Notes under the pieces: model-generated
Databases searched by the model: none
The model's input: the letters and a program-made list of their open reading frames with translations, nothing else
What the model was told of the DNA's origin: nothing
NCBI GenBank assembly: GCA_947178085.1
Contig: CAMWWS010000040.1
Span: 1-12,593 of the forward strand
Reading direction: 5' to 3'
DNA length: 12,593 nucleotides
From: an uncultured Lachnospiraceae bacterium
GTDB lineage: Bacteria; Bacillota_A; Clostridia; Lachnospirales; Lachnospiraceae
Part shown: positions 1 through 12,593 of the stretch, piece by piece
Numbering within the stretch: the stretch's first letter is position 1
Layout of the letters: each line of letters opens with the position of its first letter
Translations under genes and position numbers: made by a program

Positions 1-738
1 ATCGTGGGAATCTCGATTATGATCAATAATCTTAGCAGGATTCCTCTGGGAGCTCTGACTTTTGTCCTCAACCTTCCGTTCCTGATCGTCGGTATGCGGA
101 AGCTGGGGAAAAAATTTATTGCCAAATCTGCGGTTGCCATGGTAACATTTTCGATTTTTCTGGAAATATTTGCACCTCTTACGGATATGACGCATGATTA
201 TCTTCTGGCCGTATGTTTCGGCGGAGTGTTTCTGGGAGTAGGCGTGGGGCTTGTCATTCGCTCCGGCGGCTGCTTAGATGGAACGGAGACTGTGGCAATT
301 TTTCTGAACCGACGTTTTAATCTTCCGGTGGGACAGACGGTTCTTTTCATCAATGTCATGATCTATACGATCGCAGGTAAAATGTTTGGATTTGACAGGG
401 CTATGTATAGCCTTTTGACGTATTTTATCACGTCGAAGGTGATCGATTTTGTAGAGACAGGCGTAGAGCAGGCAAAAGCCGCCATGATAATCACTAATGA
501 GGGACGTGAGATTGCGGATGAAATCTATAAGAAGATGGGGCGTACAGTGACAATCTTGGAAGGCGAGGGTCTGATTAGTGGGAAAAAGGTAATCCTCTAC
601 TGCGTACTGAACCGGCTTGAGATTTATCAACTAAAGCAACTGATCAATGAAGTAGATGCGAGTGCTTTTATCACGATTAGTGATGTGTCAGAGATTATTG
701 GAAATCATATTAAGAAGATAGCAGATAAAGATAAGTAA
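1..738 (+). CDS. YitT family membrane protein, 5' end cut off by window edge
   Basis: The frame is open from the first base (an in-frame ATC precedes a GTG at position 4), so the start lies outside the window and about 40 N-terminal residues are probably missing. The visible 245 residues show hydrophobic segments (for example the stretches around ALTFVLNLPFLIVG and AVCFGGVFLGVGVGLVIRSGG) and then a soluble C-terminal domain of about 80 residues beginning near ITNEGREIADEIYKK. This is the family layout: a YitT membrane domain followed by a DUF2179 domain. The glycine-rich IRSGGCLDGTETVAIFLNRR segment is typical. Members are integral membrane proteins of unknown transport or regulatory role. 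The gene stands alone with its own terminator and is not obviously connected to the operon downstream. The family assignment is firm and the function is not. Confidence 0.85.
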   Translation: MVGISIMINNLSRIPLGALTFVLNLPFLIVGMRKLGKKFIAKSAVAMVTFSIFLEIFAPLTDMTHDYLLAVCFGGVFLGVGVGLVIRSGGCLDGTETVAIFLNRRFNLPVGQTVLFINVMIYTIAGKMFGFDRAMYSLLTYFITSKVIDFVETGVEQAKAAMIITNEGREIADEIYKKMGRTVTILEGEGLISGKKVILYCVLNRLEIYQLKQLINEVDASAFITISDVSEIIGNHIKKIADKDK

Positions 739-780
739 TAAAGCGATATGTATTATATTAATTAAAATAAACATTATAAG

Positions 781-810
781 AAAAGAGGTTTATTCCTCTT
801 TTTTCTTTTT
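781..810 (+). terminator. intrinsic terminator after the YitT gene
   Basis: A perfect 8-bp stem AAAAGAGG (781-788) / CCTCTTTT (795-802) has a 6-base loop and is followed by a T-rich tail to 810. It lies 42 bases after the yitT-type stop codon and before the promoter of the next operon, so the two units are separated. Confidence 0.85.
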
Positions 811-840
811 ATCTAAGCAAATATTAAAAAATTTTAAATA

Positions 841-877
841 TTACCCTGCGTAATATATTGCTTGTGACGCTGCGTAA
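841..877 (+). promoter_or_regulatory. two tandem 13-bp dyads, candidate MerR operators
   Basis: The first dyad is TTACCCTGCGTAA (841-853) and the second is TGACGCTGCGTAA (865-877). Each is an inverted repeat around a central T with one mismatched pair out of six. The shared core CTGCGTAA recurs at a 24-bp offset. The second copy lies between the -35 and -10 boxes, where MerR-family dimers bind. The first lies just upstream of the -35. The binding protein is inferred from position only. Confidence 0.5.
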
Positions 878-888
878 TGTTGTAAAAT
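858..888 (+). promoter_or_regulatory. MerR-type promoter with 19-bp spacer
   Basis: A -35 box TTGCTT (858-863) and a -10 box TAAAAT (883-888) are separated by 19 bp (864-882). That overlong spacer is the signature of promoters activated by MerR-family proteins, which untwist the DNA to realign the two boxes. A 13-bp dyad sits inside the spacer. An AT-rich tract (about 818-842) lies just upstream. The predicted start point near 895 leaves only a short leader before the ribosome binding site. The regulator encoded immediately downstream is the likely ligand-responsive activator or autorepressor. Confidence 0.6.
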
Positions 889-897
889 CAGCAGTGT

Positions 898-904
898 AAG
901 GAGG
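898..904 (+). promoter_or_regulatory. ribosome binding site fixing the merR-like start at 913
   Basis: AAGGAGG (898-904) sits 8 bases before ATG 913. A GTG at 904 opens the same frame three codons earlier but overlaps this Shine-Dalgarno sequence, so it is not the start. Confidence 0.8.
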
Positions 905-912
905 TGAAAGCT

Positions 913-1647
913 ATGTCAAAATACACGACTGGAGAAATTGCGAAGCTCTGCGGCGTATCAGTCAGAACGGTGCAGTACTATGATACTCGTGGAATTTTGA
1001 TACCCAGCGAACTCTCAGAGGGTGGCAGAAGACTTTATTCAGAGGATGACTTCAAGCGAATGAAGATCATATGTTTTCTTCGTGACGCCGGTATCTCTAT
1101 TAATAATATAGGAGAATTGCTGTCAGGAGACAATCCCGGAAGTGTTATTTCCGTTCTGCTTGAACAACAGGAGCAGTTTCTTCGGGAAGAAGTAAATGAA
1201 AGACAAGCAAAACTTGATATGCTTGATGGGATAAAAAAGGAGCTTAAGAGCGTTGAAAATTTCTCCGTTGAATCTATCGGTGATATAGCTTATGCAATGG
1301 AAAACAAGAAGAAAATGAGACAGTTACATGCAATCCTGCTGATTACAGGTATCCCTATTTCCATACTTCAATGGGCATCTATCATTCTGTGGATTGCCGC
1401 AGGAATATGGTGGCTTTTTGTCCTTTATGTCTTAGCATTCATTCCATATGTGGTTTGGGTAACAAACTTTTATTTCAAAAGAGTTGCGTATATCTGTCCA
1501 CAGTGCCACGAGATATTTAAGCCTAATTTCAAAAAGGCTTTTTGGGCGAGCCATACCCCGACACTCAGAAAATTGACCTGTACCTGCTGTGGGTATAAAG
1601 GATTCTGCGTGGAAACTTATGGAAAGGAGGAAAAAAAGAATGGATAA
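913..1647 (+). CDS. MerR regulator with membrane hairpin and C-terminal zinc ribbon
   Basis: This 244-aa protein begins with a complete MerR winged-helix domain (residues about 4-70: YTTGEIAKLCGVSVRTVQYYD, then the wing SEGGRRLYSEDD). A helical linker follows (about 75-115), of the kind that forms the MerR dimer coiled coil. Residues about 138-188 are almost wholly hydrophobic and look like two closely spaced membrane helices, which would place both ends in the cytoplasm. The C-terminus has CX2C pairs at C195/C198 and C223/C226, 24 residues apart between the pairs, a probable zinc ribbon. The protein is likely a membrane-anchored transcription factor controlling its own operon through the 19-bp-spacer promoter. 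Its stop overlaps the next start by 8 bases, which implies translational coupling. The MerR domain is certain. The membrane sensing role is inference. Confidence 0.9.
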   Translation: MSKYTTGEIAKLCGVSVRTVQYYDTRGILIPSELSEGGRRLYSEDDFKRMKIICFLRDAGISINNIGELLSGDNPGSVISVLLEQQEQFLREEVNERQAKLDMLDGIKKELKSVENFSVESIGDIAYAMENKKKMRQLHAILLITGIPISILQWASIILWIAAGIWWLFVLYVLAFIPYVVWVTNFYFKRVAYICPQCHEIFKPNFKKAFWASHTPTLRKLTCTCCGYKGFCVETYGKEEKKNG

Positions 1648-1843
1648 GATTATGGAATTTCTTCCGTTTTTGATTCCGTTGGCAATCGCTGAGTTTGCTC
1701 TGTTGGGTTACACGCTTTTTCACATTTTAACCCATAAGAATTATAAAAGAGGCAATCGTACTCTGTGGCTCGTTGTTGCGATTGTCGGCATGGAGTTTAT
1801 CGGTCCGATCCTGTACTTCCTGCTTGGAAAGGAGGACGACTGA
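1640..1843 (+). CDS. small two-helix PLDc_N-type membrane protein
   Basis: A 67-aa protein starts at ATG 1640 behind GGAAAGGAGG (1621-1630), inside the 3' end of the MerR gene. It consists of two hydrophobic helices (about residues 6-30 and 41-63) joined by a basic loop (HKNYKRGNR), with an acidic tail after a PILYFLLGK motif. This matches the short PLDc_N (phospholipase D/nuclease N-terminal) family, which has no nuclease residues. Such proteins commonly sit directly before ABC-2 exporter genes in Bacillota. B. subtilis YxlE, upstream of YxlF/YxlG, is an example. It is probably an accessory or regulatory membrane subunit of the following transporter. The role is inferred from context. Confidence 0.8.
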   Translation: MDKIMEFLPFLIPLAIAEFALLGYTLFHILTHKNYKRGNRTLWLVVAIVGMEFIGPILYFLLGKEDD

Positions 1844-1844
1844 C

Positions 1845-2741
1845 ATGGATGTGCTGGCAATACAAAACCTGAAAAAGAATTTTGGCAGCAAAGAAGTACT
1901 TTGCGGGATTGATCTGTCTGTACCTGAACACAGCATTTTCGGATTTATCGGTAAAAACGGCGCAGGAAAAACAACGACGATGAAGGCAATTCTTGGACTT
2001 CTAAAACCGGACAGTGGTGAAGTTTATGTCATGGGGGAAAAAGTGCATTTCGGGCAGACCGGTACCAATCGTTACATCGGATATCTGCCTGATGTGCCGG
2101 AATTTTATTCCTATATGACGCCGCTTGAATATCTGAATTTTTGCGGAGAGGTAAGCGGGATGGACAAATCCGATATTGTTGCGAGAAGCAAGGAACTCAT
2201 AGATCTGGTTGGTCTTGGAAAGGAACGCCACCGCATCAAAGGATTTTCAAGGGGGATGAAGCAACGTCTGGGAATTGCACAGGCACTTCTAAACCGGCCC
2301 AAACTGCTTATCTGTGATGAGCCGACATCAGCGCTTGATCCTGTAGGGCGTAAGGAAATTTTGGATATTCTTCTTGCAGCAAGGGAACAGACAACAGTGC
2401 TTTTTTCCACGCACATTCTTTCTGATGTGGAACGAATCTGCACTGCAGCAGCTTTTTTGAATAACGGAAAAATCGCCATGCAGGGAACTATTGCAGAACT
2501 GCGAAACAAGCGGTCATCTGACGGATTTATCATCGAAACAGAACAAAAAGGAGATACCGATACACTTATAAAAACATTTGGCGACCTCCGACGCACGGAA
2601 CAAAATGCGCTTGTTTTTCATGGCAGCGAGGAGCGTTTCTTTGCCATCATGCAATATGTTGCTGAAAATAGAATACCCGTACAGAAAATTGAACGAATAG
2701 AGCCAACGCTTGAATCAATGTTTTTGGAGGTTACAAAATGA
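1845..2741 (+). CDS. ABC exporter ATP-binding protein (YxlF/BcrA type)
   Basis: The start is ATG 1845, one base after the preceding stop, with GGAAAGGAGG (1826-1835) as ribosome binding site, giving 298 aa. The nucleotide-binding domain is complete. Walker A is GKNGAGKTT at residues 36-44. The signature is FSRGMKQR, the non-LSGGQ variant usual in BcrA/YxlF ATPases. Walker B is LLICDEPTSALDP, and the H-loop is STHILSD. A C-terminal extension of about 80 residues, ending ESMFLEVTK, is also typical of the DrrA/BcrA-like exporter class. It powers the permease encoded next, with which it shares an ATGA stop/start overlap. Related systems export peptides or antibiotics, or act in envelope stress. 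The substrate here is unknown. Confidence 0.93.
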   Translation: MDVLAIQNLKKNFGSKEVLCGIDLSVPEHSIFGFIGKNGAGKTTTMKAILGLLKPDSGEVYVMGEKVHFGQTGTNRYIGYLPDVPEFYSYMTPLEYLNFCGEVSGMDKSDIVARSKELIDLVGLGKERHRIKGFSRGMKQRLGIAQALLNRPKLLICDEPTSALDPVGRKEILDILLAAREQTTVLFSTHILSDVERICTAAAFLNNGKIAMQGTIAELRNKRSSDGFIIETEQKGDTDTLIKTFGDLRRTEQNALVFHGSEERFFAIMQYVAENRIPVQKIERIEPTLESMFLEVTK

Positions 2742-3508
2742 AGTCATTGCTTGCTTTTATGAAAAAAGAGTATCTTGAAGTTACACGGACAGGAAAAATC
2801 ATTATTCTCATACTGCTGTTTGTCCTGTTTGGTATTATGAATCCTGCGATTGCGAAGCTGACGCCGTGGTTAATGGAAATGCAGTCAGAAACACTGGCAG
2901 AAAGTGGGTTGATTGTCACAAATATTCAGGTAGATGCAATGACTTCATGGACACAGTTTTTCAAGAACATTCCCATGGCGCTTATTGCTTATGTATTAAT
3001 TTTCAGCGATATATTTACGAAAGAATACAAATCAGGAACATTGTTACTTGTGCTGACAAAAGGCTTATCGAGATACAAAGTTGTGCTTGCAAAAACTTTA
3101 CTGTTACTGTCGCTTTGGACATTAGGCTACGGGATTTGCTTCGCAATTACATATGGCTATAATGCTTATTTTTGGGATAACGGTGTTGCTGATAACATAT
3201 TTTCCTCGGTAGCTATATGGTGGCTGTTCGGTGTATGGGTGATATGTCTTGTTGTCCTGTTCTCGTCACTGCTGCAGAATACCACAGGAGTTTCCCTGTG
3301 TACCGGCGGGACGGTGCTTTTAGCGTATTTATTGAGCATCATACCTAAAGTAAAGGCGTATTCACCTACGATGCTGATGGATACTAATTCACTTTTGATT
3401 GGTGCTGAGGGAGCTGACACATATATAAAAGCTGTCGTTGTTGCGGCTGCATTGTGTATAGTATGCGTTGCTGTTAGTTTGCCGGTTATAAACAAAAAAG
3501 AGATTTAG
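2738..3508 (+). CDS. ABC-2 type permease (YxlG-like)
   Basis: This 256-aa integral membrane protein overlaps the ATPase stop by ATGA (2738-2741). It opens with the ABC-2 N-terminal pattern (FMKKEYLEVTRTGK followed by the first hydrophobic helix). It has an extracytoplasmic loop rich in polar residues, then the characteristic IFTKEYKSGTLLLVLTKGLSR coupling segment at about residues 91-111. About six membrane helices can be counted. The length agrees with the YxlG-type single-domain permease, which would dimerise with two copies of the ATPase. It is the last gene of the operon. Only 11 bases separate it from the convergent cysG stop, and no terminator is visible there. Confidence 0.9.
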   Translation: MKSLLAFMKKEYLEVTRTGKIIILILLFVLFGIMNPAIAKLTPWLMEMQSETLAESGLIVTNIQVDAMTSWTQFFKNIPMALIAYVLIFSDIFTKEYKSGTLLLVLTKGLSRYKVVLAKTLLLLSLWTLGYGICFAITYGYNAYFWDNGVADNIFSSVAIWWLFGVWVICLVVLFSSLLQNTTGVSLCTGGTVLLAYLLSIIPKVKAYSPTMLMDTNSLLIGAEGADTYIKAVVVAAALCIVCVAVSLPVINKKEI

Positions 3509-3519
3509 TGAGGTCCTTT

Positions 3520-4872
3520 CTATTGGTCGAGTGGGGCGGATAGGTCCATAGCCGTCACATCGCCAACTATAATGATTGCCGGTGCGGATACATTGGCATC
3601 TTTTACAGCCTGCTCAAGTTGGGAGAGCGGTGCGCGAACCCGAATAGGGTTTGGCGCATTGCCGCCGGAGACCACGGCAGAAGGCGTGTTTTCATCTTTG
3701 CCGGCTGCCATCAACCGTGTGATGATGGTAGACAGTCGTTCTAAGCCCATTAGAAATACCAGCGTACCTGACAGCTTTGCCAGAGCATCAAAATCTGCCG
3801 GTAATCCGTCCGGCGTGTCGGCGGTATGGGCTGTAATGATATGCAGACTACGGCTTATTCCACGATGGGTAACAGGAATTCCCGCCTCAGCCGCTATGCC
3901 GATTGCAGATGGAATGCCCGGAATCTCCTGACAGGAAATTCCGGCAGCTTTTAATGCCAGTATCTCTTCGCCGCCGCGTCCAAAGAGGTAGGGGTCCCCG
4001 CCTTTCAGACGAACCACTTGTAAGCCGGAACGTGCCAATTCGATAAGCTTCCGGTTGATTTCGGTCTGTGATGCGGCATGTACTCCGCTGCGCTTACCCA
4101 TGTAGAAGCGTTTGGCAGATTCCGGTACTACATCCAGCAAGGCCGGATCGATCAGGTCATCATACACCACTGCCTGACACTGCTGCAGCAGCCGCAATCC
4201 GCGCATGGTGATAAGATCTGATTTACCGCAGCCTGCGCCCACTAACGCAACGCTGCCAAGCGGTTTGTCGGCAATATATTTTTCAGTTTCCGCCTGCGAC
4301 AACGGTGCGCCTTTTGCCATGCAGGCGTCAAACAGTCTGCGAAACACCGCTGCACGCTTATTCTGTTCCGGTATGGAAGCTTTCAGTGTCGGGCGTAGAG
4401 ACTCTAACCATGAAAGAAGCTTGTCTAAACCTTCAGGAAGCAGTTCCTTCAATCTTTCTTTAAAATATGCCGCCGCTACAGGGCTTGCTCCGCCGGTGGA
4501 AATACCCGCTGAGAAAGAACCCTGTTGTACCAATGCCGGAAACAGGAAACTGCAAAGCGCCGGATCATCTGCCACATTTACTGGAATATGGCGTTTCCTA
4601 CAAAGAACGGAGATTTTGCGATTTATGGTTTTATTGTTTGTAGCGGTAATGACCAGCGAAGGGCGTGGACGCAGATCAGAAGTATTGAAACTACGTTTGC
4701 GCAGCTTCACATTATGAAGCGATTCAAATTCTGGCAGGATGTGTGGTGCGACCACTGTTGGGAGCACACCGTAAGGCATCAGCTTTTGCAGCTTGCGAAG
4801 CGCGACAGTTCCACCGCCAACAATCAGAACAGGTTTATTTTTTAAATCTATGAATATAGGAAAATAGGGCAT
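3520..4872 (-). CDS. cysG: fused siroheme synthase: precorrin-2 dehydrogenase/ferrochelatase plus uroporphyrinogen-III methyltransferase
   Basis: The 450-aa length and domain order match enterobacterial CysG. Residues 1-150 form the NAD-dependent precorrin-2 dehydrogenase/sirohydrochlorin ferrochelatase (LIVGGGTVALRKL at 16-28). D102, in VADDPALCSF, aligns with the CysG aspartate needed for dehydrogenation and chelation. Residues about 207-445 form the SAM-dependent uroporphyrinogen-III C-methyltransferase (VVRLKGGDPYLFGRGGEE, then PVTHRG, then TLVFLMG). Together they convert uroporphyrinogen III to siroheme, with Fe2+ inserted last. The usual GAGPGD loop of the methyltransferase reads GAGCGK (212-217), so the conserved Asp is a Lys. 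The gene starts at ATG 4872 behind AGAAGGAAGG, 29 bases after the ABC ATPase stop, so it is the distal gene of the transporter operon. Siroheme is required by the reductase encoded upstream on the same strand. Confidence 0.93.
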   Translation of the reverse strand: MPYFPIFIDLKNKPVLIVGGGTVALRKLQKLMPYGVLPTVVAPHILPEFESLHNVKLRKRSFNTSDLRPRPSLVITATNNKTINRKISVLCRKRHIPVNVADDPALCSFLFPALVQQGSFSAGISTGGASPVAAAYFKERLKELLPEGLDKLLSWLESLRPTLKASIPEQNKRAAVFRRLFDACMAKGAPLSQAETEKYIADKPLGSVALVGAGCGKSDLITMRGLRLLQQCQAVVYDDLIDPALLDVVPESAKRFYMGKRSGVHAASQTEINRKLIELARSGLQVVRLKGGDPYLFGRGGEEILALKAAGISCQEIPGIPSAIGIAAEAGIPVTHRGISRSLHIITAHTADTPDGLPADFDALAKLSGTLVFLMGLERLSTIITRLMAAGKDENTPSAVVSGGNAPNPIRVRAPLSQLEQAVKDANVSAPAIIIVGDVTAMDLSAPLDQ

Positions 4873-4901
4873 TTTTATAACCTTCCTTCTTTATCAATCT
4901 T

Positions 4902-5663
4902 TTACTTTGGGATACAGTAATATTGCGTACCGTGTGGGGTATTCATACGGTGTACACCTACGCCGAACACCTGCGCAAGAATACCGCTTTGGTAAACGTA
5001 ATCCGGTGTACTGCAACAAAGAAGACTGCCTTCCTGTAATACGGCAATGCAATCCGCTTCACGCAGCGCCAGTGAAATATCGTGAAGTACCAGTACCACT
5101 GCTTTTCCTTCCCGAGCAAGGGAATGAGCGGTCTGCATCATTTGAAACTGGCGGCTGATATCTAAATAAGTGTTAGGTTCATCCATAAAAACAGTTTGTG
5201 TATCCTGTGCCAGAGCCATTGCTAAATATACGCCCTGGCGTTGACCGCCGCTGAGCTGACTGACATTGGTATCCTCGTGCTGCAGGCTGCCAGTGGACTC
5301 CATAGCTTTGCGGGAAATGGCATAATCCTGCCGGCTGTAGTATCTGGGATAGGTCAGATATGGAAAACGTCCGTGCAGAACCATTCGCAGTGCCTGAATA
5401 GAGGGCGTGTTTCGGCTTTGGGTCAGAAACGCTGCTTTTTGGGCAATCTGCCTGTGCTTCAGCTGCCGGATGTCCACGCCGTCATACAAAACCTCACCGT
5501 TCATTGAAGGCAGCAGTCCAAGCGCAGCTTTCAGCAGAGTTGACTTTCCGCTGCCGTTAGGACCGATCAGAACAGTTACTTTTCCCGGTAGAAAATCCAT
5601 CGTAATGTTCTGTATAATAGGTTTTCCCAAATATCCGGCAGAGAGATTGTTAAGTTGAATCAT
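4902..5663 (-). CDS. metal-chelate ABC importer ATPase (FecE/FepC/BtuD type)
   Basis: This 253-aa cytoplasmic ATPase has Walker A GPNGSGKST (residues 34-42), a Q-loop in FLTQSRNTPS, signature LSGGQRQG, Walker B VFMDEPNTYLD and H-loop VLVLHDISLALREAD. The HDISLALREAD pattern and the length are typical of the iron-siderophore/heme/vitamin B12 import family. The start ATG overlaps the permease stop (ATGA, 5660-5663), which is tight operon packing. It would drive uptake through the FecCD-type permease. Sequence alone does not separate siderophore, heme, cobalamin or other chelates. The downstream siroheme gene makes iron or heme the likelier cargo. Confidence 0.92.
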   Translation of the reverse strand: MIQLNNLSAGYLGKPIIQNITMDFLPGKVTVLIGPNGSGKSTLLKAALGLLPSMNGEVLYDGVDIRQLKHRQIAQKAAFLTQSRNTPSIQALRMVLHGRFPYLTYPRYYSRQDYAISRKAMESTGSLQHEDTNVSQLSGGQRQGVYLAMALAQDTQTVFMDEPNTYLDISRQFQMMQTAHSLAREGKAVVLVLHDISLALREADCIAVLQEGSLLCCSTPDYVYQSGILAQVFGVGVHRMNTPHGTQYYCIPK

Positions 5664-6673
5664 GTGCGTACTCCTTTCTGCTTAAACAGAAGCCATAGGA
5701 AGAATGGAACTCCCGCAAAAGCAAGAATGATACCGACTGGCAGCTCAAACGGCGAAAATAAAATTCTTGCCAGCAAATCACACACCATTACAAAGAAAGC
5801 GCCTCCCAGTGCGGAGGAGAGTAACAGTGGCAGGCTGTTTTCGCCTAATAAACGCCGCATCGTATGGGGGACGATCAGACCCACAAAGCCCATCAGTCCG
5901 CAAAAACTCACTGCCGCACCGGCAAGAGCAGCAGCCAGAACCAACAAAATAAAGCGCATAAACTGAACAGAAAGACCGAGGCTTTGAGCTGTATCACTGC
6001 CCAGCGCAAGGATATCCATCTGCTGAGAGAGGGAGAGCGTAATGCCTAAACTTACAAGAATCAATATAGCTGCAGGAGCAAGCTGTTTCATGGTTACGCC
6101 TGTAAAGCCGCCAATGCGAAAATCTGTTATGCCGTTTACTGCATCAGGCACCAGAGTGACCACAGCGTCAATACCGGCACTGAACAAAGTGGATATGGCA
6201 ACGCCTGCGAGAATCACGGTCATACGGGAAGCACCGGTGCGCTGGGACAATGTTGTTACCAAAAGAACGCTGCCCAATGCGCCGCAAAATGCCATAAGGG
6301 GCGTATACTGCTGTGCCAGCGGCGAGACAGCACAGATTAAAGCCACGGCAAATCCCGCGCCGGAATTGACGCCGATAACACCGGGAGACGCAAGCGGATT
6401 ATTCAGAACCGTCTGAATGACCGCACCGGAAACTGCTAAGGCTGCACCCGCCAGCATTGCAGCGCAGGTACGTGGCAGACGGCTGTAAAGTATGATTCGT
6501 GCGGCTATTGAATTAATCTCCCTTCCGGTCAGCACATCAAGCACCTGTACAGGAGATAGTTTCACTGAGCCAATCCACAGGCTGATTATTGCTGTTGCCA
6601 AGGCCAAGATGAATAGCCCTGCAAAAAAAATACCGTTACTGCGCCGGGTAGAGAATATCCGCAAGTTTCTCAT
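5660..6673 (-). CDS. FecCD/BtuC-family metal-chelate importer permease
   Basis: About ten membrane helices can be followed. Family hallmarks are RLPRTCAAMLAGAALAVSGA (first cytoplasmic motif), NNPLASPGVIGVNSGAGF, and FCGLMGFVGLIVPHTMRRLL near the C-terminus, the coupling region that contacts the ATPase. The ATG at 6673 is preferred, giving 337 aa, because a GGGGGGAAG run lies 4-13 bases before it. The ATG at 6694 would add MKDGGKP and a longer overlap. With 6673 the gene still overlaps the end of the binding-protein gene by 38 bases, so translation is probably coupled. The subunit dimerises with two ATPases and receives substrate from the lipoprotein. Confidence 0.92.
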   Translation of the reverse strand: MRNLRIFSTRRSNGIFFAGLFILALATAIISLWIGSVKLSPVQVLDVLTGREINSIAARIILYSRLPRTCAAMLAGAALAVSGAVIQTVLNNPLASPGVIGVNSGAGFAVALICAVSPLAQQYTPLMAFCGALGSVLLVTTLSQRTGASRMTVILAGVAISTLFSAGIDAVVTLVPDAVNGITDFRIGGFTGVTMKQLAPAAILILVSLGITLSLSQQMDILALGSDTAQSLGLSVQFMRFILLVLAAALAGAAVSFCGLMGFVGLIVPHTMRRLLGENSLPLLLSSALGGAFFVMVCDLLARILFSPFELPVGIILAFAGVPFFLWLLFKQKGVRT

Positions 6674-7586
6674 AGGCTTCCCCCCATCTTTCATTTGGTT
6701 TCATGTTGTAAAGGTTTTGGTCCATCACATAATAACGTCCTTCCTGTACGGCAGTCAGAGAAGCCCAGGCAGGATTCTGTAAAAGCGTGGTTTTCAAAAC
6801 TGCCTGTGCATCTGTAGGGTCTGACCCTTGCAGAACCACAAATATATAGTCAGGATCATATAGCAGGATGGATTCTATGCTTAGTTGTTCCAAAAGACTG
6901 TCTTCGCTGTCTGCTATATTTTTACAGTCCAGATTGGCGAGCATCTCTCCGAGTACGCTTCCCTCACTGTTTTTTACCTTACAACTGCTTCCGGTGGCTC
7001 GGATATACAAAACACTCGGACACGAACCGTCTGCTCTTGCTATGGCATTTTTTACCTGTGACTGAACGGCGGTACCGTATTTTTCGTAATTTTCGGAAAA
7101 GCCGGTAATCTCCGTGCAGATCTTTAACATTCGCAGATAATCTTCAAATGTGTTGACGGAGAAATACGCCGTATTGATTCCCATTTCATCAAAGACAGAC
7201 TCCAGTTCCGTATTCCGGTCTGTGCCACAGCTTGCAATGACAAAATCAGGATTGCAGGCAATCAGTTCTTCTATGTTCAGCTCCTTTGCGGCACCCAGAT
7301 TGACAATATCCTTCCGCAGAGGTAAATCAAAATAGATCCAGGTAGAGTTGGTCGTAGCGACGATTTGATCCACCCCTCCGGCAAGATACCAAATATCCGC
7401 GAAGCTGGCAATCAGACAAACCACCCGTTCCGGGCGATCTATCGTTACCTGACGGCCTAAGTCATCCGTAAATGTCACTGCCGTGTTTGAATTTGTTTCC
7501 GAGGACGGCAACGCGTCAGCAGAACTGCCGCAGGCAGTCAGAAGCAGGAGACAGCATAACATAATAATAAAATAAAGTTTTTTCAC
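6636..7586 (-). CDS. metal-chelate ABC importer substrate-binding lipoprotein (TroA/FepB fold)
   Basis: This 316-aa protein starts at a GTG (7584-7586), with AGAAAGGAA about 8 bases upstream. The N-terminus is a lipoprotein signal: KK, a hydrophobic core rich in Leu, then lipobox LTAC with the modified cysteine at residue 19, followed by a Ser/Asn-rich linker. The mature part opens with FTDDLGRQVTIDRPERVVCL, the standard first strand of the periplasmic binding protein class that carries siderophores, heme and B12. It ends in a helix after NERWGEAYEKLADILYPAQ. It would be lipid-anchored on the outer face of the membrane and would deliver ligand to the permease. It is the first gene of the operon, which continues to cysG. 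Ligand identity cannot be read from the sequence. Confidence 0.9.
   Translation of the reverse strand: MKKLYFIIMLCCLLLLTACGSSADALPSSETNSNTAVTFTDDLGRQVTIDRPERVVCLIASFADIWYLAGGVDQIVATTNSTWIYFDLPLRKDIVNLGAAKELNIEELIACNPDFVIASCGTDRNTELESVFDEMGINTAYFSVNTFEDYLRMLKICTEITGFSENYEKYGTAVQSQVKNAIARADGSCPSVLYIRATGSSCKVKNSEGSVLGEMLANLDCKNIADSEDSLLEQLSIESILLYDPDYIFVVLQGSDPTDAQAVLKTTLLQNPAWASLTAVQEGRYYVMDQNLYNMKPNERWGEAYEKLADILYPAQ
6677..6685 (-). promoter_or_regulatory. ribosome binding site inside the binding-protein gene
   Basis: On the minus strand a GGGGGGAAG run precedes ATG 6673. It lies inside the last codons of the upstream lipoprotein gene. It favours the 6673 start of the permease over 6694, which has no good Shine-Dalgarno sequence. 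Confidence 0.5.
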
Positions 7587-7604
7587 AGGGCATTTCCTTT
7601 CTAT

Positions 7605-7637
7605 TTAAAATTATCTTAAAATTATCATAGATTTATC
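7605..7637 (-). repeat. 2.7 tandem copies of an 11-bp AT-rich repeat at the transporter promoter
   Basis: On the plus strand TTAAAATTATC occurs perfectly at 7605-7615 and 7616-7626, and a third degenerate copy (8/11) at 7627-7637. Read on the minus strand these are GATAATTTTAA units one helical turn apart. GATAAT is the hexamer from which Fur boxes are built, so this may be an iron-dependent operator. It overlaps the predicted -10 and start point. The regulator is inference. Confidence 0.5.
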
Positions 7638-7656
7638 TTAGACCTATTTCAGGTCT
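7624..7656 (-). promoter_or_regulatory. candidate promoter of the importer-cysG operon with a 6-5-6 dyad over the -35
   Basis: On the minus strand a CTGAAA -35 (7647-7652) and TATGAT -10 (7624-7629) are 17 bp apart. A perfect inverted repeat AGACCT-N5-AGGTCT (7640-7656) covers the -35. The -35 matches the consensus in only four of six bases, so this may be a repressed or activator-dependent promoter. Confidence 0.35.
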
Positions 7657-7686
7657 GTTTTCAGTAAAATAAAAGAATCGCAACAG

Positions 7687-7744
7687 ACAAAAGGGCATAG
7701 ATTTCCCTTACCATAATGGAAAGAGAAATCGTTTCAAAGCCCTT
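7687..7744 (-). terminator. long imperfect hairpin, probable terminator of the 852-aa reductase gene
   Basis: The arms are AAGGGC (7691-7696) / GCCCTT (7739-7744), then GATTTC (7700-7705) / GAAATC (7725-7730), then an inner CCA/TGG stem around a TTA loop, with small internal loops between. On the minus strand the outer arm runs into TTTT. It lies about 60 bases after the stop of the reductase gene and before the importer promoter. The T tract is short, so termination may be partial. Confidence 0.5.
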
Positions 7745-7805
7745 CATCGTCTTATGCGATCCGGCAGATTAATCTTAACTTTTAAATTCTGACAAAAATA
7801 TTCGT

Positions 7806-10364
7806 TTAGCAGGTCGCGCCGCCTTTTACGGTTTTTTGTAAAATGGCAGCTTTATCAATAGTATCGGAAAGCAGCTTTGCGTTAACATAGTCAAAGCCTA
7901 AGCGGTTGACGGTGTCGGCAAATCGCTCGCCGGAGATACCCTCGTCGCGGAATAGGAGAATTGCTTTCTCCACAACATCAATCACTTCTTCCTCGCTGCT
8001 GAAAATCTTGGTCAGCGGAGTGCCGTGTGCAACCTTTTTACCCCAACGGCCGCCGATATAGATTTTGAAGCCTTCTTTATACTCTTCCAGTGCGCCGAAT
8101 GGACATCTGCCCTTGCAGCGGCCACAGTTGTTGCAGGCATCGGGATCAATGCGTACCTTACCATCGACTACCTTAGCTACCTTGACAGGACAGTTCTCTT
8201 CAACTTGACACTTCTTGCAGCCACGGCATTTAGAAAAGTCCACCATAGGAACGCGCTGACCGATGATACCTAAATCATTCAGGTCAGGCTTAACACAGTT
8301 GTTAGGACAACCGCCTACTGCAATTTTGAACTTATGAGGCAGAGTAACGCCGTGATAACCCACATAGAAGCGTTCATGCAATTTTTCGGATAAGCCATAT
8401 GTATCGGCTAGACCATACTGACAGGTAGTACCTTTGCAGGAAACAACAGGTCGTACCAGTGAACCGGTGCCTCCAGTGGTCAGACCGTGCTCATTTAAAT
8501 AGTCAATCAACGGCTGGATGTTTTCGTGCTTAACACCCTGAATCTCCAGCGTCAGACGGGTGGTCATGGTAACGGCGCCTGAACCGAAAATTTCAGAAGC
8601 CTCAGCGATGGTCCGGTGTTCATCCGCTGTAATCTTTCCGTTGCGGGTAATGACGCGTACATTGAAAACATCGGGATAACGTTTATCCTGCAGACAACCC
8701 AGAGCTTTAACGCGCTTAATCTCTTCCGGAGGAAGAACGCCGCCCGCAAACTGTACCTTGACATTATTGATAAAGGCACCGCCCTCTAAAACGCGGGTGT
8801 TGGTGTAACCCAAAGCCTTCAAACGGTTTTGCAGGAAGTAGCCGCGCTTGCCTTTGGCACAAACGAGCAGAAGTTTTTCATCTGTTCCAATGCCGTCAAT
8901 CGGCGCGGTAACTTTGCCCAAATCAACCCACTTTGCACCGGGAATGGTAGCAGCGGGATGGGCATCGATGACACGGTAGCCATTGGCTTTTCCTGCGGCG
9001 TACTCGGCGGGCGTAAAAGTTTCAAATGAACCCATCATCTTGTTTTCCAGTATGTAGCACGCCTGCACAAAAGGATGAATGGCAGTGGAGAATGGAGGCG
9101 CATAGGCGAAATCCAATGTGTCAAAATCCTCAATCGCTGCGTTCATGGCAATGCCAGTAACAGCGATATCCACCATCTTATCTACCGCGCCTGCGCCTAA
9201 GACCTGAATACCTAACAGCTTATGGGTACTCTTGTCGGCAATCAGCTTGGTAACAAAAGAGGAGGCGTCAGAATAGTAATGCGCTTTGTCATCTGTAACA
9301 CAGGTGACTGTAATAACATCATAGCCTGCATCTTTTGCCTGAGCTTCAGTCAGACCGGTGCGGCCTGCGTTCAGATCGCCTGCCAGCTTCACAACACCGG
9401 TTCCCAGACAGCCACCATAGACAGCGTCCTTCCCGGTCAGATTTTTAGCAAGGCAGCGTCCTGTAATGTTTGCAGTTGAACCCATGGCTGACCACTGTCC
9501 TTTGCCGGTGATACGGTTATAAACCTGTGCGCAGTCGCCCACGGCATATATGTCATTTAAGTTTGTTTTTTGATGGTCATCTACCAGGATGGTGCCCCGG
9601 TTCATCTCCAGACCGGACTCCGACAGAAAAGCGGTAGCGGGACGGACGCCGATGGCAAGCACTACCAGTTCGCCCTCGAAGATGCCCACACTGGTGCGGA
9701 TACCGGTGGCTTTTTCATTACCCAGCACTTCCTCCAAAGCGGCGCCGGTAACAATCCGGATACCTTTATTCTGTAACTGACGACGGATATATGCAGCCAT
9801 TTCCACATCAAACAAGTTAGGCATGACCTGGTCCGCCATATCGACAACGGTAACTTTCAGACCCTTGGACAGCAGATTTTCTGCAATCTCCAAACCGATG
9901 AATCCGCCGCCTACGACTACGGCGCTGCCGCAGTGGTTATTTTCTATGTAAGCACGAAGGTCAATAGCATCATTAGGCGTACGCATAGTGAATACACCGG
10001 ACAAATCGGTACCTTTAACGTCAGGTACGAATGGAACGGCGCCTGTAGCAATGACAAGTTTGTCATAGGAAACAGTTTCACCGTTTGCAAAGCTGACGGT
10101 TTTAGCAGCTGCGTCCATGCTTACGGCTTCCATTTCAGTTCTGACTTCTACCCCTGTCAGACTGGTGTACTTTTCAGGCGTATTAACTATTAATTCTTCA
10201 CGGGTTTCGATACTTCCTCCCACATAATAGGGCAGACCGCAGCCGGCGTAAGAGATATCCTTACTCTTGGTATAGACTGTGACCTTTGCACTGCGATCCT
10301 GACGCATCAGTTTTGCAGCGGTTTTTGTGCCGGCAGCAACGCCTCCGATAACAATAACATTCAT
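7806..10364 (-). CDS. CoA-disulfide reductase - rhodanese - siroheme sulfite/nitrite reductase - ferredoxin fusion
   Basis: One 852-aa frame contains four units. (1) Residues 1-445 are an FAD/NAD(P)H CoA-disulfide (persulfide) reductase: GGVAAG at 7-12, the single redox cysteine C42 in SYAGCGLPYYVGG, GGGFIG at 152-157, YAVGDCA near 273, and the dimerisation YAPPFS at 421-426. (2) Residues about 447-535 are a rhodanese with active-site loop C502-AKGKRG. (3) Residues about 560-700 are a half ferredoxin-like domain with MTTRLTLEI, then siroheme/4Fe-4S cysteines C643, C648, C686 and C690. (4) Residues 713-754 carry two 4Fe-4S clusters (C713/716/719/725 and C744/747/750/754). Units 1-2 match the CoADR-rhodanese/Npsr class. 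Units 3-4 resemble AsrC-like small sulfite reductases. It is cytoplasmic and probably reduces persulfide, sulfite or nitrite using NAD(P)H. The start is ATG 10364 with AAAGGAG 8 bases upstream. Domain calls are firm and the net reaction is inferred. Confidence 0.9.
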   Translation of the reverse strand: MNVIVIGGVAAGTKTAAKLMRQDRSAKVTVYTKSKDISYAGCGLPYYVGGSIETREELIVNTPEKYTSLTGVEVRTEMEAVSMDAAAKTVSFANGETVSYDKLVIATGAVPFVPDVKGTDLSGVFTMRTPNDAIDLRAYIENNHCGSAVVVGGGFIGLEIAENLLSKGLKVTVVDMADQVMPNLFDVEMAAYIRRQLQNKGIRIVTGAALEEVLGNEKATGIRTSVGIFEGELVVLAIGVRPATAFLSESGLEMNRGTILVDDHQKTNLNDIYAVGDCAQVYNRITGKGQWSAMGSTANITGRCLAKNLTGKDAVYGGCLGTGVVKLAGDLNAGRTGLTEAQAKDAGYDVITVTCVTDDKAHYYSDASSFVTKLIADKSTHKLLGIQVLGAGAVDKMVDIAVTGIAMNAAIEDFDTLDFAYAPPFSTAIHPFVQACYILENKMMGSFETFTPAEYAAGKANGYRVIDAHPAATIPGAKWVDLGKVTAPIDGIGTDEKLLLVCAKGKRGYFLQNRLKALGYTNTRVLEGGAFINNVKVQFAGGVLPPEEIKRVKALGCLQDKRYPDVFNVRVITRNGKITADEHRTIAEASEIFGSGAVTMTTRLTLEIQGVKHENIQPLIDYLNEHGLTTGGTGSLVRPVVSCKGTTCQYGLADTYGLSEKLHERFYVGYHGVTLPHKFKIAVGGCPNNCVKPDLNDLGIIGQRVPMVDFSKCRGCKKCQVEENCPVKVAKVVDGKVRIDPDACNNCGRCKGRCPFGALEEYKEGFKIYIGGRWGKKVAHGTPLTKIFSSEEEVIDVVEKAILLFRDEGISGERFADTVNRLGFDYVNAKLLSDTIDKAAILQKTVKGGATC

Positions 10365-10437
10365 AACCTTCGCTCCTTTGTTTTTTATTGATGGAAACTG
10401 AAAATTCTGTTCCGATGTTTCTTGGTTTCACCTTTTC

Positions 10438-10466
10438 ATTGTAGCATGAGACTCGCGAAAAATCAA
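10438..10466 (-). promoter_or_regulatory. sigma-A type promoter of the reductase fusion gene
   Basis: Read on the minus strand, TTGATT (10461-10466), a 17-bp spacer and TACAAT (10438-10443) with an upstream TG give an extended -10. The leader of about 70 bases ends in AAAGGAG (10373-10379). The 17-bp spacer is not of MerR type, so the adjacent MerR protein is not expected to act here by DNA untwisting. Confidence 0.65.
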
Positions 10467-10510
10467 TTAACTGTGAGTATCTGATGGAATGGAAACAGGT
10501 TATATTTCTT

Positions 10511-11374
10511 TTAGCCTTTATGCAAATAATAGCGAAAAGCTTCTACAATATAATCGCTGCTGCCAGTACCGTGTTTTGTGTCAAATATTCTTTTTAAGTA
10601 ATCATTGGAGTAGGTTTCAATAATCATGTTGCAATAATTATCATCATCTCCAATTAATTCGGACGGAGCGTTTACACGGGCATAGGCAATAATTTCTTTA
10701 ACTAAATTTTGGATGTAGTCTGAAGCAACATCTTCTCCTTTACGTGAAGCTAATTTAAGAAACTTATCTTCTGTTCTCATTTCTTCCGGAATTTGTGAAT
10801 ACCGGTTGTCCATGATTTCAGAGAAATGTTCTAAATTATGTTTCATAGCTTCGGTGTATTTTTCGATACTGCCGAACTGTTGGATGGCTAGTTTGGCTAC
10901 CTCGGATTCATCATCTTTGATCTTCTGAATAAACATATCAAAATTCTCGATGCTTCCCCAGTGCTTGACGACCTCTTCTGTCTGGTTGGATTTAAAATCT
11001 TCTAAGGCGTTAATATAATCGGACATATCAAATTCTTTAAAACTCATACATTGTTCTCCCTTCTCTAAACGGCTAAGAAGCTGTATAAGTCGTTCCGTTC
11101 GATTACGCTTTAGAAGAAGTAATTCCTTTTGCTTCTTGAAAGCGGATATTTTATCAAAATCAGGCTTTTGCAGAATTTCCTTAATCTCATTTAACTTGAA
11201 ACCTAATTCCTTAAAAAACAGGATTTGTTGAAGTTTCTGCAATGCTTCATCATTATATAAGCGATAGCCGGACTGTGTTAATTCACTTGGTTTTAACAGC
11301 CCGATTTCATCATAGTATTGCAGAGTGCGTATGCTGATACCTGTTAATTCTGCAACTTGACTTATGGTTCTCAT
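10511..11374 (-). CDS. MerR-family regulator with TipAS-type ligand domain
   Basis: This 287-aa protein has an N-terminal MerR domain (residues 1-70: ISQVAELTGISIRTLQYYDE, then QSGYRLYNDEAL). A basic coiled-coil linker (about 78-105) follows. The C-terminal part of about 170 residues, containing TEEVVKHWGSIENF, fits the TipAS antibiotic-recognition fold. TipAL and Mta are full-length relatives that activate multidrug or self genes when the TipAS domain binds a drug. A second FGSIEKYTEAM segment in the TipAS part echoes the first. The start is ATG 11374, with AAAGGAG at 11384-11390. The gene has its own 19-bp-spacer promoter, so autoregulation is likely. No clear terminator separates it from the reductase gene 146 bases downstream, so read-through is possible. 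The ligand is unknown. Confidence 0.88.
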   Translation of the reverse strand: MRTISQVAELTGISIRTLQYYDEIGLLKPSELTQSGYRLYNDEALQKLQQILFFKELGFKLNEIKEILQKPDFDKISAFKKQKELLLLKRNRTERLIQLLSRLEKGEQCMSFKEFDMSDYINALEDFKSNQTEEVVKHWGSIENFDMFIQKIKDDESEVAKLAIQQFGSIEKYTEAMKHNLEHFSEIMDNRYSQIPEEMRTEDKFLKLASRKGEDVASDYIQNLVKEIIAYARVNAPSELIGDDDNYCNMIIETYSNDYLKRIFDTKHGTGSSDYIVEAFRYYLHKG

Positions 11375-11398
11375 TCTTATCAGCTCCTTTAGTTAGTA

Positions 11399-11442
11399 GA
11401 GAAGCAAGATAGAAATTGCCGGCTAATATCTATTTTGCTCTC
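11399..11442 (-). other. long imperfect inverted repeat in the leader of the TipAS-type regulator
   Basis: The arms GAGAGCAA..ATAGA..ATT and AAT..TCTAT..TTGCTTCTC surround an AGCCGGC loop (all read on the minus strand). Three paired blocks of 4+4, 5 and 3 bp are broken by single mismatches or bulges. The element starts about two bases after the predicted transcription start and ends 8 bases before the ribosome binding site, so the mRNA would begin with this hairpin. Confidence 0.5.
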
Positions 11443-11450
11443 TTGAGATT

Positions 11451-11481
11451 AGAATACAGTATCACGTAGCGTGGGAGTCAA
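11451..11481 (-). promoter_or_regulatory. classic MerR promoter and operator (19-bp spacer, CACG-CTA-CGTG dyad)
   Basis: On the minus strand a near-consensus TTGACT (11476-11481) and TATTCT (11451-11456) are separated by exactly 19 bp. The spacer holds the palindrome CACGCTACGTG (11462-11472). The layout is that of MerR-family targets such as those of Mta and BmrR. It reads into the MerR/TipAS gene, so autoactivation is expected. Confidence 0.8.
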
Positions 11482-11657
11482 TACTTTTTTCTAAAACTTT
11501 TATCATTTATTTTTGGGATAGATTTTGACAGATATACCTCTAGCTACTTTTGACAATCTTGTTGTCATCAAAAATACTTTGCTTAATAGTGTACTCGCAC
11601 TTTTTTTAAGTCCATTTTTAATAGTAAGGACAATGCATCTGATACAGTTTCTATATT

Positions 11658-11762
11658 TTAATCGATAAAGACATTGTTACTTATATCCAAAGCATTTACG
11701 ATTTTCGGCAGTTGGTTGGGATTGTGAATGCTATACTCAGATTTTGTGATTCTCTGTAGTGA
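11658..11762 (-). pseudogene. remnant of an XRE-type helix-turn-helix regulator
   Basis: The minus-strand frame ending at TAA (11658-11660) encodes 34 residues, with the segments SLQRITKSEYSIHNPNQ and LPKIVNALDISNNVFID. This follows the second half of an HTH_3 domain: the recognition helix with an 'L.RI.K.E' pattern, then the 'NP..L.KI..ALDIS...F' helices. An in-frame TAG at 11763-11765 precedes it, and no start codon or first helices could be found in any frame upstream. It is best read as the 3' end of a truncated gene. The match is by pattern only. Confidence 0.45.
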
Positions 11763-11843
11763 CTAGTTCAATTCTATCATACTGGGATAAATATATGTTC
11801 TGGAAATGAAAGGACAGGACTATGTGGAGAATGAAAAAATGTA

Positions 11844-11892
11844 GCGGCAAAAGAAGCAGGGGTTTCGTCGAGCTGCTTTTGTGTCTAGCCGC
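11844..11892. other. GC-richer hairpin in AT-rich DNA
   Basis: GCGGC (11844-11848) pairs with GCCGC (11888-11892), and AAGCAG (11854-11859) with CTGCTT (11873-11878). There is an internal loop and a 13-base apical loop. No T tract follows on either strand, so it is not an ordinary terminator. It could be a small structured RNA piece or a relic of a mobile element. Confidence 0.3.
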
Positions 11893-12261
11893 TTATGTTG
11901 AGGGAAGCGGTGGATAAAGAACTTGGTAGTATTTTGCTCATTAGCAGAAAAGTAAATTTCTATTTATTTTTTAAATAATATTGTAGGTTTGGATTTTGTA
12001 TGATAGTGATATAAAATTGTATTCATGTAAATTTTACTACATTTTTGACTTTTTTTGAAATACTATGGAAAGCTATAATTAAAAGAAATATAATAGAATT
12101 ATCATATATCAGAGAAAAGCATAAGTGTTTATATTCGTGAATAGCTATTAAGCAGTAAATTTATGGATAAAGTGAAAATTTTACATTAGGTGTTATCGTT
12201 TTGAAAATCTAACACTTTAGTAGTAATAAATTAATGGAGAAGCAGAACAATTGGCATGTAG

Positions 12262-12494
12262 AAATGTGATGGTAGTCTGGAAGAAAATCTTGCATTTGAC
12301 TTGCCTTTACTGGAAGAATTAATGAACAGGTTATTTGATAGTAAAAATAATTATTGTTTTGATTCCATTAGGCTGTTGCTGGAGTATTTAATGTACTTCT
12401 TATAGAAATGGGTGAAGAATATTTTGGAAGTAAAAACTCTAATATTGATGTACTGTTTTATATAGGAGTTCGAGATGTATGGTGGTTATTATAG
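12262..12494 (+). pseudogene. possible decayed ORF, two overlapping frames
   Basis: One frame is open from 12262 to a TAG at 12403-12405 (47 codons, including AFDLPLLEELMNRLFDSKNN). A second frame is open from 12372 to a TAG at 12492-12494 (including GVFNVLLIEMGEEYFGSKN). The two pieces overlap and have ordinary amino-acid composition, as expected of one gene broken by a frameshift. Neither has a start with a ribosome binding site. I do not recognise the family. Confidence 0.25.
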
Positions 12495-12527
12495 TGCCAA
12501 TTAATTTATAATGTTTAAAAATATCTT

Positions 12528-12582
12528 GGGTACAATTTGAGTACACCAGTTTGAAAACCGCATAAAGCAGCAAAAACCGTAT
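12528..12582. repeat. short direct repeats at the right edge, possible attachment-site region
   Basis: GTACA occurs at 12530-12534 and 12541-12545 (11 bp apart). AAAACCGCAT (12554-12563) recurs as AAAACCGTAT (12573-12582, 9/10 match, 19 bp apart). Short phased repeats of this kind are found near tyrosine-recombinase attachment sites. No integrase gene lies in the window, so this is only suggestive. Confidence 0.25.
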
Positions 12583-12593
12583 CAAAATGACAC

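Follow-up and report, generated by a model that had tools for sequence, protein, structure and literature searches.

Architecture of the fusion protein

The window analyzed here is a stretch of 12,593 nucleotides (positions 1 to 12,593 of the forward strand of contig CAMWWS010000040.1, GenBank assembly GCA_947178085.1) from an uncultured Lachnospiraceae bacterium. Its principal feature is an intact open reading frame (ORF), ATG to stop, running from 10364 to 7806 on the minus strand and encoding a single polypeptide of 852 amino acids (aa). The protein joins a coenzyme A (CoA)-disulfide reductase (CoADR), a rhodanese (RHD), a siroheme sulfite-reductase domain with two inserted [4Fe-4S] clusters and a C-terminal tail that ends in a cysteine. 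Table 1 gives the coordinates of these modules and of the neighboring genes.

Pfam assigns Pyr_redox_2 to residues 1-282, Pyr_redox_dim to 330-429, rhodanese to 465-529 (25.2 bits, just above the cut-off of 22.2), NIR_SIR_ferr to 565-625 and NIR_SIR to 634-829, with Fer4 matches at 712-767, that is, inside NIR_SIR. The siroheme-cluster cysteines are C643, C648, C686, and C690 (spacing C643-X4-C648-X37-C686-X3-C690), and those of the ferredoxin insert are C713, C716, C719, C725, C744, C747, C750, and C754. A first-pass annotation of this DNA had listed these twelve along with C42 of the CoADR and C502 of the rhodanese, and all lie where it placed them; it overlooked the conserved last residue, Cys852. 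The structure model of the full-length protein is confident, with a predicted local distance difference test (pLDDT) of 90.9 and a predicted template modeling score (pTM) of 0.68. Long antisense ORFs over the gene were taken as artefacts of ORF picking.

Table 1. Modules of the fusion protein and neighboring genes in the window
Feature	Positions	Strand	Evidence
Fusion of CoADR, rhodanese, siroheme sulfite-reductase domain with inserted 2x[4Fe-4S], and C-terminal Cys tail, 852 aa	7806..10364	-	ORF; Pfam; 41/46 genome loci
CoADR module, aa 1-440, active-site Cys C42	9045..10364	-	Pfam; alignment to 8a56/3icr/6pfz; Foldseek
Rhodanese module, aa 441-545, C502 loop CAKGKR	8730..9044	-	Pfam; C502 aligned with C508 of E. 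faecalis CoA-persulfide reductase
Siroheme sulfite-reductase domain, aa 556-852	7809..8699	-	NIR_SIR_ferr and NIR_SIR; Fsr is best PDB relative (sequence, predicted fold)
Two-cluster ferredoxin insert, aa 712-758 (C713 to C754)	8091..8231	-	Fer4 matches; eight invariant Cys
C-terminal tail, aa 837-852, ending VKGGATC, Cys852 last	7809..7856	-	Conservation of terminal Cys; co-occurrence with CoADR-RHD; model
ATP-binding cassette (ABC) substrate-binding protein, Peripla_BP_2	6636..7586	-	Pfam
ABC permease, FecCD family	5660..6694	-	Pfam
ABC ATPase	4902..5663	-	Pfam
Siroheme synthase CysG (precorrin-2 dehydrogenase and uroporphyrinogen-III methyltransferase)	3520..4872	-	NF007922, 416.9 bits (cut-off 400)
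MerR-family regulator with TipAS domain, upstream of fusion	10511..11374	-	Pfam

Distribution and conservation

The fusion is real and conserved. A protein search with the 852-aa query gave scores to 7975 relatives, the majority of which may have no more than some of the domains in common with it; among the matches listed, at least 120 database proteins of 849-867 aa match the query along 100% of its length, with identities of 82-96%. Forty-one of 46 genome loci encode the fusion, 39 at full length and two (L014 and L029) cut by contig ends; the others are L046, a contig-edge fragment of 87 residues, and L042-L045, which lack the siroheme part (checked with Pfam for L042 and L044). The four-part single polypeptide reported by the first-pass annotation is therefore a recurrent protein, and the worry raised there, that a frameshift or assembly error had joined two genes, is ruled out: we rejected frameshift, read-through, and mis-assembly alike because the fusion occupies 41 of the 46 loci and the matches span the whole query. 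Carriers are classified as Lachnospiraceae, Oscillospiraceae, Clostridia, or Bacillota and are mostly metagenome-assembled genomes, the named ones including Parablautia intestinalis D8-82 and Ructibacterium gallinarum DSM 107454.

Conservation was scored over 162 full-length fusion proteins (the window, the 39 loci, L082, L083, and the 120 database proteins), a set that holds many close relatives and does not amount to 162 independent observations. In this set C42, C502, and the twelve cluster cysteines never vary (162/162). The fusion is the sole NIR_SIR (PF01077) match in 30 of the 39 fusion genomes. Relatives of its siroheme half occur in 94 of 391 genomes of the class, mostly as standalone open frames of about 280-350 aa; some of these directly adjoin a separate CoADR-RHD gene and others have none next to them.

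The CoADR-rhodanese half

Judged by its predicted fold and its active-site residues, the flavoprotein half is a CoADR-RHD. Residues 1-545 have the fold of the CoADR-RHD, Npsr, and CoA-persulfide reductase (CoAPR) structures (8a56, 3icr/3ict, 6pfz, 3nta) at 30-34% identity, and Foldseek template modeling scores normalized to the target (TMt) are 0.87-0.93 overall (0.92 for 8a56, 0.89-0.90 for 3ict, and 0.92-0.93 for 6pfz). C42 and the rhodanese cysteine are held in common. The fusion falls short of the CoA-disulfide reductase equivalog TIGR03385 (372.3 bits against a cut-off of 578.8), and it differs from known CoADR-RHD proteins in having a siroheme domain on the same chain or encoded next to it, in two extra basic loop residues, and in forming its own long-branch clade. 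Residue 175 is aspartate in 161/162 fusions, and an acidic residue of this kind favors NADH. In E. faecalis CoAPR the two cysteines lie about 27 Å apart, CoA has been proposed to bridge them as an arm, and C42 together with flavin adenine dinucleotide (FAD) releases H2S, according to the structural report (PMC9405070).

In the rhodanese loop, positions 504 and 506 are each basic in 161/162 fusions and in 25/25 of the split partners (CoADR-RHD proteins encoded beside a separate siroheme gene) that show the loop, whereas generic CoADR-RHD proteins have S at 504 and L at 506 (107/111 each); R507 is kept in 162/162 fusions and 23/25 split partners. Thiosulfate or another anionic sulfur donor is suggested by the two extra positive charges, and bovine rhodanese has basic loop residues as well. 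In a second type of fusion, represented by L041, the loop is generic (7/7), and we therefore rejected the idea that the tail requires the two extra lysines.

Another one-chain sulfur relay was seen at L042:7953-10448 and L044:6742-9306, where proteins of 831 and 854 aa have the order CoADR-rhodanese-TusA-DsrE; here CoADR-RHD is extended by sulfur-relay modules, with no siroheme part.

The siroheme half and known reductases

By sequence and by predicted fold, the siroheme half is nearest to Fsr (7np8 and 7npa; also 9tn7), with 28-29% identity and a query-normalized template modeling score (TMq) of 0.80-0.81. In MjFsr, R355, R423, K460, and K462 bind sulfite and R388 is a trait of the assimilatory type, as described in PMC10229431. 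Counting along the sequence alignment places these residues at R570, R638, K678, K680, and R603 of the fusion, respectively, and each is present in 162/162 proteins. Fsr likewise combines a flavoprotein with one siroheme domain into which a ferredoxin is inserted, and it has the same five basic residues. Unlike Fsr, the fusion has no F420H2-oxidase (FrhB-like) domain, Pfam giving Pyr_redox_2 and the CoADR-RHD modules instead; its siroheme-cluster motif is CX4C rather than the CX5C (CX5CXnCX3C) of Fsr, and its cysteine tail extends past the region aligned to Fsr.

Other families are more distant. AsrC also has a siroheme domain with inserted [4Fe-4S] clusters, but the fusion scores only 96.6 bits against TIGR02912 (cut-off 324.1), and no AsrA or AsrB lies among the genes of the window's run, the rest of the genome not having been searched for them. 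DsrAB has a related siroheme fold (TMq 0.70-0.73), with fusion scores of 87.8 bits for dsrA (cut-off 392.85) and 91.6 for dsrB (341.5); the DsrAB/DsrC system shares the idea of sulfur on a C-terminal cysteine, which in the fusion would be a single carrier cysteine on the same chain. NirB, like the fusion, carries a Pyr_redox flavoprotein and a siroheme domain on one chain; unlike NirB, the fusion reaches 246.4 of the required 578.35 bits for TIGR02374, yields no BFD [2Fe-2S] domain in the Pfam result, and contains a disulfide-reductase dimerization domain and a rhodanese. These cut-offs and domain differences led us to reject the fusion as a full member of AsrC, DsrAB, NirB, Fsr, or the CoADR equivalog.

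The C-terminal cysteine and its redox partners

The terminal cysteine (Cys852, in the motif GGA[TS]C) is kept in 161/162 fusions, including L041, the most divergent of them (44-46% identical). The exception, L040, is 63% identical to the window protein in the siroheme half, 85% in the flavoprotein part, and 74% in the rhodanese. Its genome, G038, encodes this tailless fusion (L040:8001-10556) and a separate tailed siroheme protein (L079:4204-5151), which looks like recombination, two-subunit use, or a chimeric assembly. In the full-length model the last ten residues form neither helix nor strand, and pLDDT is 83 for residues 841-850 and 54 for 851-852; a model of the siroheme domain by itself gives 78 over the last eight residues. 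The models thus allow a mobile arm without demonstrating one.

Presence of the tail follows presence of the flavoprotein. In a table of 119 siroheme ORFs, the tail is found in 32/33 of those with a CoADR-RHD fused or encoded on the same strand within 600 bp and in 9/86 of those without (24/25 and 4/46 in the first 71 ORFs alone), and the lone tailless ORF of the 33, L114, runs into a contig end. Tails were scored by a loose pattern that counts VSGATC and TTATC too. The table takes in all 55 class-survey places at ≥45% identity, 10 lower ones, 6 from fusion genomes (where L081 gave no qualifying ORF), and 48 of 57 later loci, the other 9 repeating earlier places, each search contributing its best loci up to 30. 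It leaves out the 39 fusion loci, 38 of them tailed and one, L040, tailless. Among the nine tailed ORFs without CoADR-RHD, L096, L180, and L181 carry an N-terminal, cysteine-rich C_GCAxxG_C_C redox domain (by Pfam for L096 and L181, by sequence for L180), L116, L185, L186, and L188 end in VSGATC, L123 ends in TTATC, and L079 starts near a contig edge. A converse case is L084, whose siroheme half is 72% identical; it has no CoADR-RHD beside it and ends in GGAASL, as if the cysteine had been lost. We also searched 34 genomes, mostly tailless, for the CoADR-RHD part: the fusions of G032 and G038 aside, matches in 24 genomes were 27-41% identical, against 51-67% for the adjacent partners.

Three kinds of partner accompany the tail. 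The dedicated CoADR-RHD, fused or split, forms one group on a long branch from generic CoADR-RHD (Shimodaira-Hasegawa-like approximate likelihood ratio test, 100). In L041, the flavoprotein half groups instead with generic CoADR-RHD (52% identical to L148) and the siroheme half with the tailed family, so that the fusion seems, from these groupings, to have arisen at least twice; the placement calls for caution, as L041 was flagged on the flavoprotein tree for a long branch and an odd letter make-up. Seven full-length database relatives of L041 (66-95% identical) have the same architecture and all end in GGA[STK]C, which with L041 makes 8/8 tailed. The third partner is the C_GCAxxG_C_C domain: 118 of 120 listed matches carry PF09719, and 113 of these 118 end in cysteine. 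In this C_GCAxxG_C_C-siroheme family (L096:3268-4617, L180, L181; P0241-P0360), four N-terminal cysteine positions are invariant (118/118). A tail common to modules that share thiol-redox chemistry is what a thiol/persulfide shuttle predicts.

At none of 30 loci (≥44% identity) that encode a standalone tailless relative of the siroheme domain is a CoADR-RHD fused to it or encoded next to it, and an alignment that includes 15 tailless rows shows no variation at the cluster cysteines. The clusters can thus evidently be served by another donor, which makes ferredoxin a plausible electron donor in the fusion.

In a Pagel-type test of tail against partner, dependent evolution was preferred, with likelihood ratios of 32.8 (p 1.3e-6, 142 tips) and 35.6 (p 3.5e-7, 116 tips), a result that supports but does not prove dependence, since it rests on one quick tree and on a partner definition that counts the C_GCAxxG_C_C domain. 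The sample kept the window, 14 of the 39 fusion loci, 4 of the 7 second-type fusions, and 22 of the 120 C_GCAxxG_C_C proteins, picked by hand and including all 5 PF09719 members without a terminal cysteine; it dropped L082/L083, later-locus rows below 44% identity, and six far outgroup rows (L080 and L139-L143). The outgroup loci L139, L140, L142, L143, L080, and in part L141 encode more remote siroheme domains (34-35% identical) with ThiF-like and JAB-like genes next to them, as assigned by Pfam for L139 and by gene clusters for the rest, an arrangement that is perhaps a sulfur-carrier cysteine pathway.

Gene neighborhood and genome context

Downstream of the fusion, a same-strand run encodes the binding protein, the FecCD permease, the ABC ATPase, and CysG. 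Near 44 fused loci, relatives of CysG were found 14 times, of FecCD 19, of the binding protein 20, and a LysR regulator 23 times; on short contigs such counts are lower bounds. FecCD relatives lie near 19/44 fused, 8/18 split, and 15/30 tailless loci (≥44% identity). The Peripla_BP_2/FecCD/ATPase transporter (window 4902-7586; L085, L086, L088, L089, L131, and L132) adjoins siroheme domains with or without the tail, and we would guess that it carries iron, haem, or another metal chelate. In L001:13658-15754 and L027:5310-6992 the siroheme synthase is additionally fused to uroporphyrinogen-III synthase HemD, which the window copy does not have. No relative clustered with the upstream MerR/TipAS regulator in the 46 loci, and its candidacy as a conserved regulator of the fusion was dropped for that reason. 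No Rfam match was obtained in the window, and promoter and terminator scans of it gave nothing specific.

A YeiH-family gene (above the cut-off for PF03601, below it for TIGR00698) lies near 3/44 fused and 7/18 split loci and near 0/46 loci without CoADR-RHD. The LysR regulator of the split locus L094 has YeiE as its best match (199.3 bits against a cut-off of 480) and is related to YeiE without being called as such. In Salmonella, sulfite is bound by YeiE, and resistance to it requires YeiH (PMC12880088). The YeiH-family neighbors tie the CoADR-coupled form to sulfite, though through a minority of loci.

DsrC was absent from 39/39 fusion genomes by a search that recovers the E. coli relative. 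Sulfate assimilation is unlikely as the main role in most fusion genomes, since the ATP sulfurylase PF01747 is found in 0/39 and PF01507 in 15/39, although the CysDN route may still operate, because PF01747 misses E. coli as well. Xsc, which would supply sulfite from sulfoacetaldehyde, was found above the cut-off in 0/39 genomes and below it in 2, and 14 control genomes likewise gave none above, leaving this search with no positive control.

Several other genes adjoin these loci. The window's plus strand (1-3508) encodes a YitT/DUF2179 membrane protein, a MerR regulator, and an ORF that clusters with ABC ATPases, with no evident link to the fusion. At L022:3470-6992 the sulfite-reductase fusion has as neighbors a 733-aa NifH-NifD-like fusion and another protein, of 451 aa, that resembles a nitrogenase component; genes of the same clusters occur in L035 and L039, and in L022 and L039 they stand behind the LysR gene (Pfam was run on L022 only). 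The pair points to a nitrogenase-like reductase. Beside dnaJ, at L012:3071-5044, a 657-aa frame matches PF10712, "NAD-specific glutamate dehydrogenase," at 6e-155; this is probably dnaK read in antisense, a familiar way for a spurious family to arise.

Proposed mechanism and alternatives

The tail tracks CoADR-RHD, which points to thiol coupling. Our tentative reading, to which we assign a little less than an even chance, is that the protein is an NAD(P)H-linked sulfite reductase on a single chain, with a cysteine arm that works in cis much as DsrC does. Sulfite would bind at the siroheme, supplied with electrons (from ferredoxin or FAD) through the two inserted [4Fe-4S] clusters, and partly reduced sulfur would pass to Cys852 as a persulfide or a mixed tri- or disulfide. 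The tail would then carry the sulfur to C502 of the rhodanese and/or to the CoA/C42 site of CoADR-RHD, where NADH, acting through FAD and C42, would free H2S and reset the thiol. Cys852 would thus play for this siroheme the part that DsrC plays for DsrAB, taking the sulfur and being discharged at C502, CoA, or C42.

Several observations weigh against this reading. The tail, for which we claim no homology to DsrC, has a single cysteine, whereas DsrC uses two. Model confidence drops only modestly at the tail, in both the full and the domain models; one fusion of the 162, L040, has no tail; and 5 of the 118 C_GCAxxG_C_C fusions lack the terminal cysteine. Of the nine tailed ORFs that have no CoADR-RHD, five or six show no thiol partner of any kind. 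Sign tests on the trees were not significant: of 5 starred pairs, about 3.1 on average were concordant and 0.0 discordant on the first tree (one of 200 pairings had a single discordant pair), and 2.4 and 0.0 on the second, so the independent contrasts point the same way, in numbers too small for a significant result. On the link to sulfite, the LysR protein next to the fused locus L008 matches a selenium-metabolism LysR best (129.7) and YeiE less well (98.9). Finally, MtFsr, the nearest solved relative, performs all six electron transfers without an arm, as stated in PMC10229431.

In an alternative that we consider unlikely, although more plausible than those that follow, NADH reduces FAD and single electrons run to the inserted clusters and on to the siroheme for all six electrons, the rhodanese and tail being accessory. 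The first-pass annotation had proposed such an NAD(P)H-to-siroheme chain. A one-chain link from NAD(P)H to siroheme sulfur chemistry is supported by the fusion in many species, the five Fsr-type basic residues, the sole NIR_SIR match in 30/39 genomes, and the siroheme synthase in the run. The specific wire from FAD over two clusters to siroheme is hypothetical: the mechanism described for CoADR-RHD is thiol/persulfide chemistry at C42, and tailless relatives keep their clusters without an adjacent CoADR-RHD. Fsr and NirB are single-chain precedents for a wire, and the fusion itself holds donor and acceptor together. Yet Fsr, which takes electrons from F420H2 through FAD and clusters to siroheme, spans about 40 Å with a six-cluster relay, whereas the only clusters visible here are the two inserted ones and that of the siroheme, and a wire leaves the tracking of the flavoprotein by the tail unexplained.

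It is improbable, in our estimate, that the protein is a one-protein thiosulfate reductase, in which the rhodanese would split thiosulfate into a C502 persulfide, reduced by CoADR, and sulfite, reduced at the siroheme, to give two sulfides. The basic residues at 504 and 506 in fusions and split partners, against S and L in generic CoADR-RHD, and the similarly basic loop of bovine rhodanese would suit such an activity. The second fusion type, however, has the generic loop, the YeiH/YeiE-like neighbors point to sulfite itself, and no thiosulfate-specific gene was identified nearby, though no dedicated search was run. Together with the loop charges, the conversion of thiosulfate to sulfide by a rhodanese and Asr in Halanaerobium (PMC5497025) keeps this alternative in play.

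We give a similarly low probability to the tail being a structural or docking element between siroheme domain and flavoprotein, or the two traits being simply co-inherited, with no sulfur passing over Cys852. A quick 84-row tree shows tail and partner in clusters, with 9 changes needed across fused, split, and partnerless rows, so that few independent events carry the correlation, the starred contrasts numbering only 4-5. Against this, nothing requires a docking tail to finish with an invariant cysteine, the tail occurs with three unlike partners, and L084, which has no CoADR-RHD beside it, lacks the cysteine. That nitrite or another small oxidant is the physiological substrate is very improbable, given two sulfur-chemistry modules on the same chain and a YeiH-family neighbor in 10/62 loci, even though siroheme reductases often accept nitrite and the Michaelis constant of MtFsr is lower for nitrite than for sulfite (PMC10229431).

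CoADR-RHD proteins, siroheme reductases, and flavoprotein-siroheme fusions (Fsr, NirB) are already known; a search of the open-access literature, subscription papers and preprints lying outside it, found no description of this fusion or of the cysteine tail. If the cysteine-arm reading is correct, a one-cysteine arm in cis would be a genuinely new mechanism. We suggest, with slightly less confidence than for the window protein itself, a clostridial class with DsrC function in cis, in which sulfur would leave the siroheme on a one-cysteine arm, and a thiol-redox module, located on the same chain or on a neighboring one, would reset that arm; the modules paired with it are dedicated CoADR-RHD, generic CoADR-RHD, and C_GCAxxG_C_C. 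The window protein would be the complete one-gene version, converting sulfite (possibly thiosulfate) and NADH to H2S in gut Lachnospiraceae and Oscillospiraceae.

The named strains that carry the fusion make this reading testable. If it holds, the fusion would offer a single-protein system for the exit of sulfur from siroheme, which current work approaches through DsrAB, DsrC, and a membrane complex, and would show a trisulfide-style sulfur relay packed into one gene. It would also mean that gut Clostridia contain a sulfide producer whose scores fall well short of the Asr and Dsr models examined, one that surveys relying on such models may miss.

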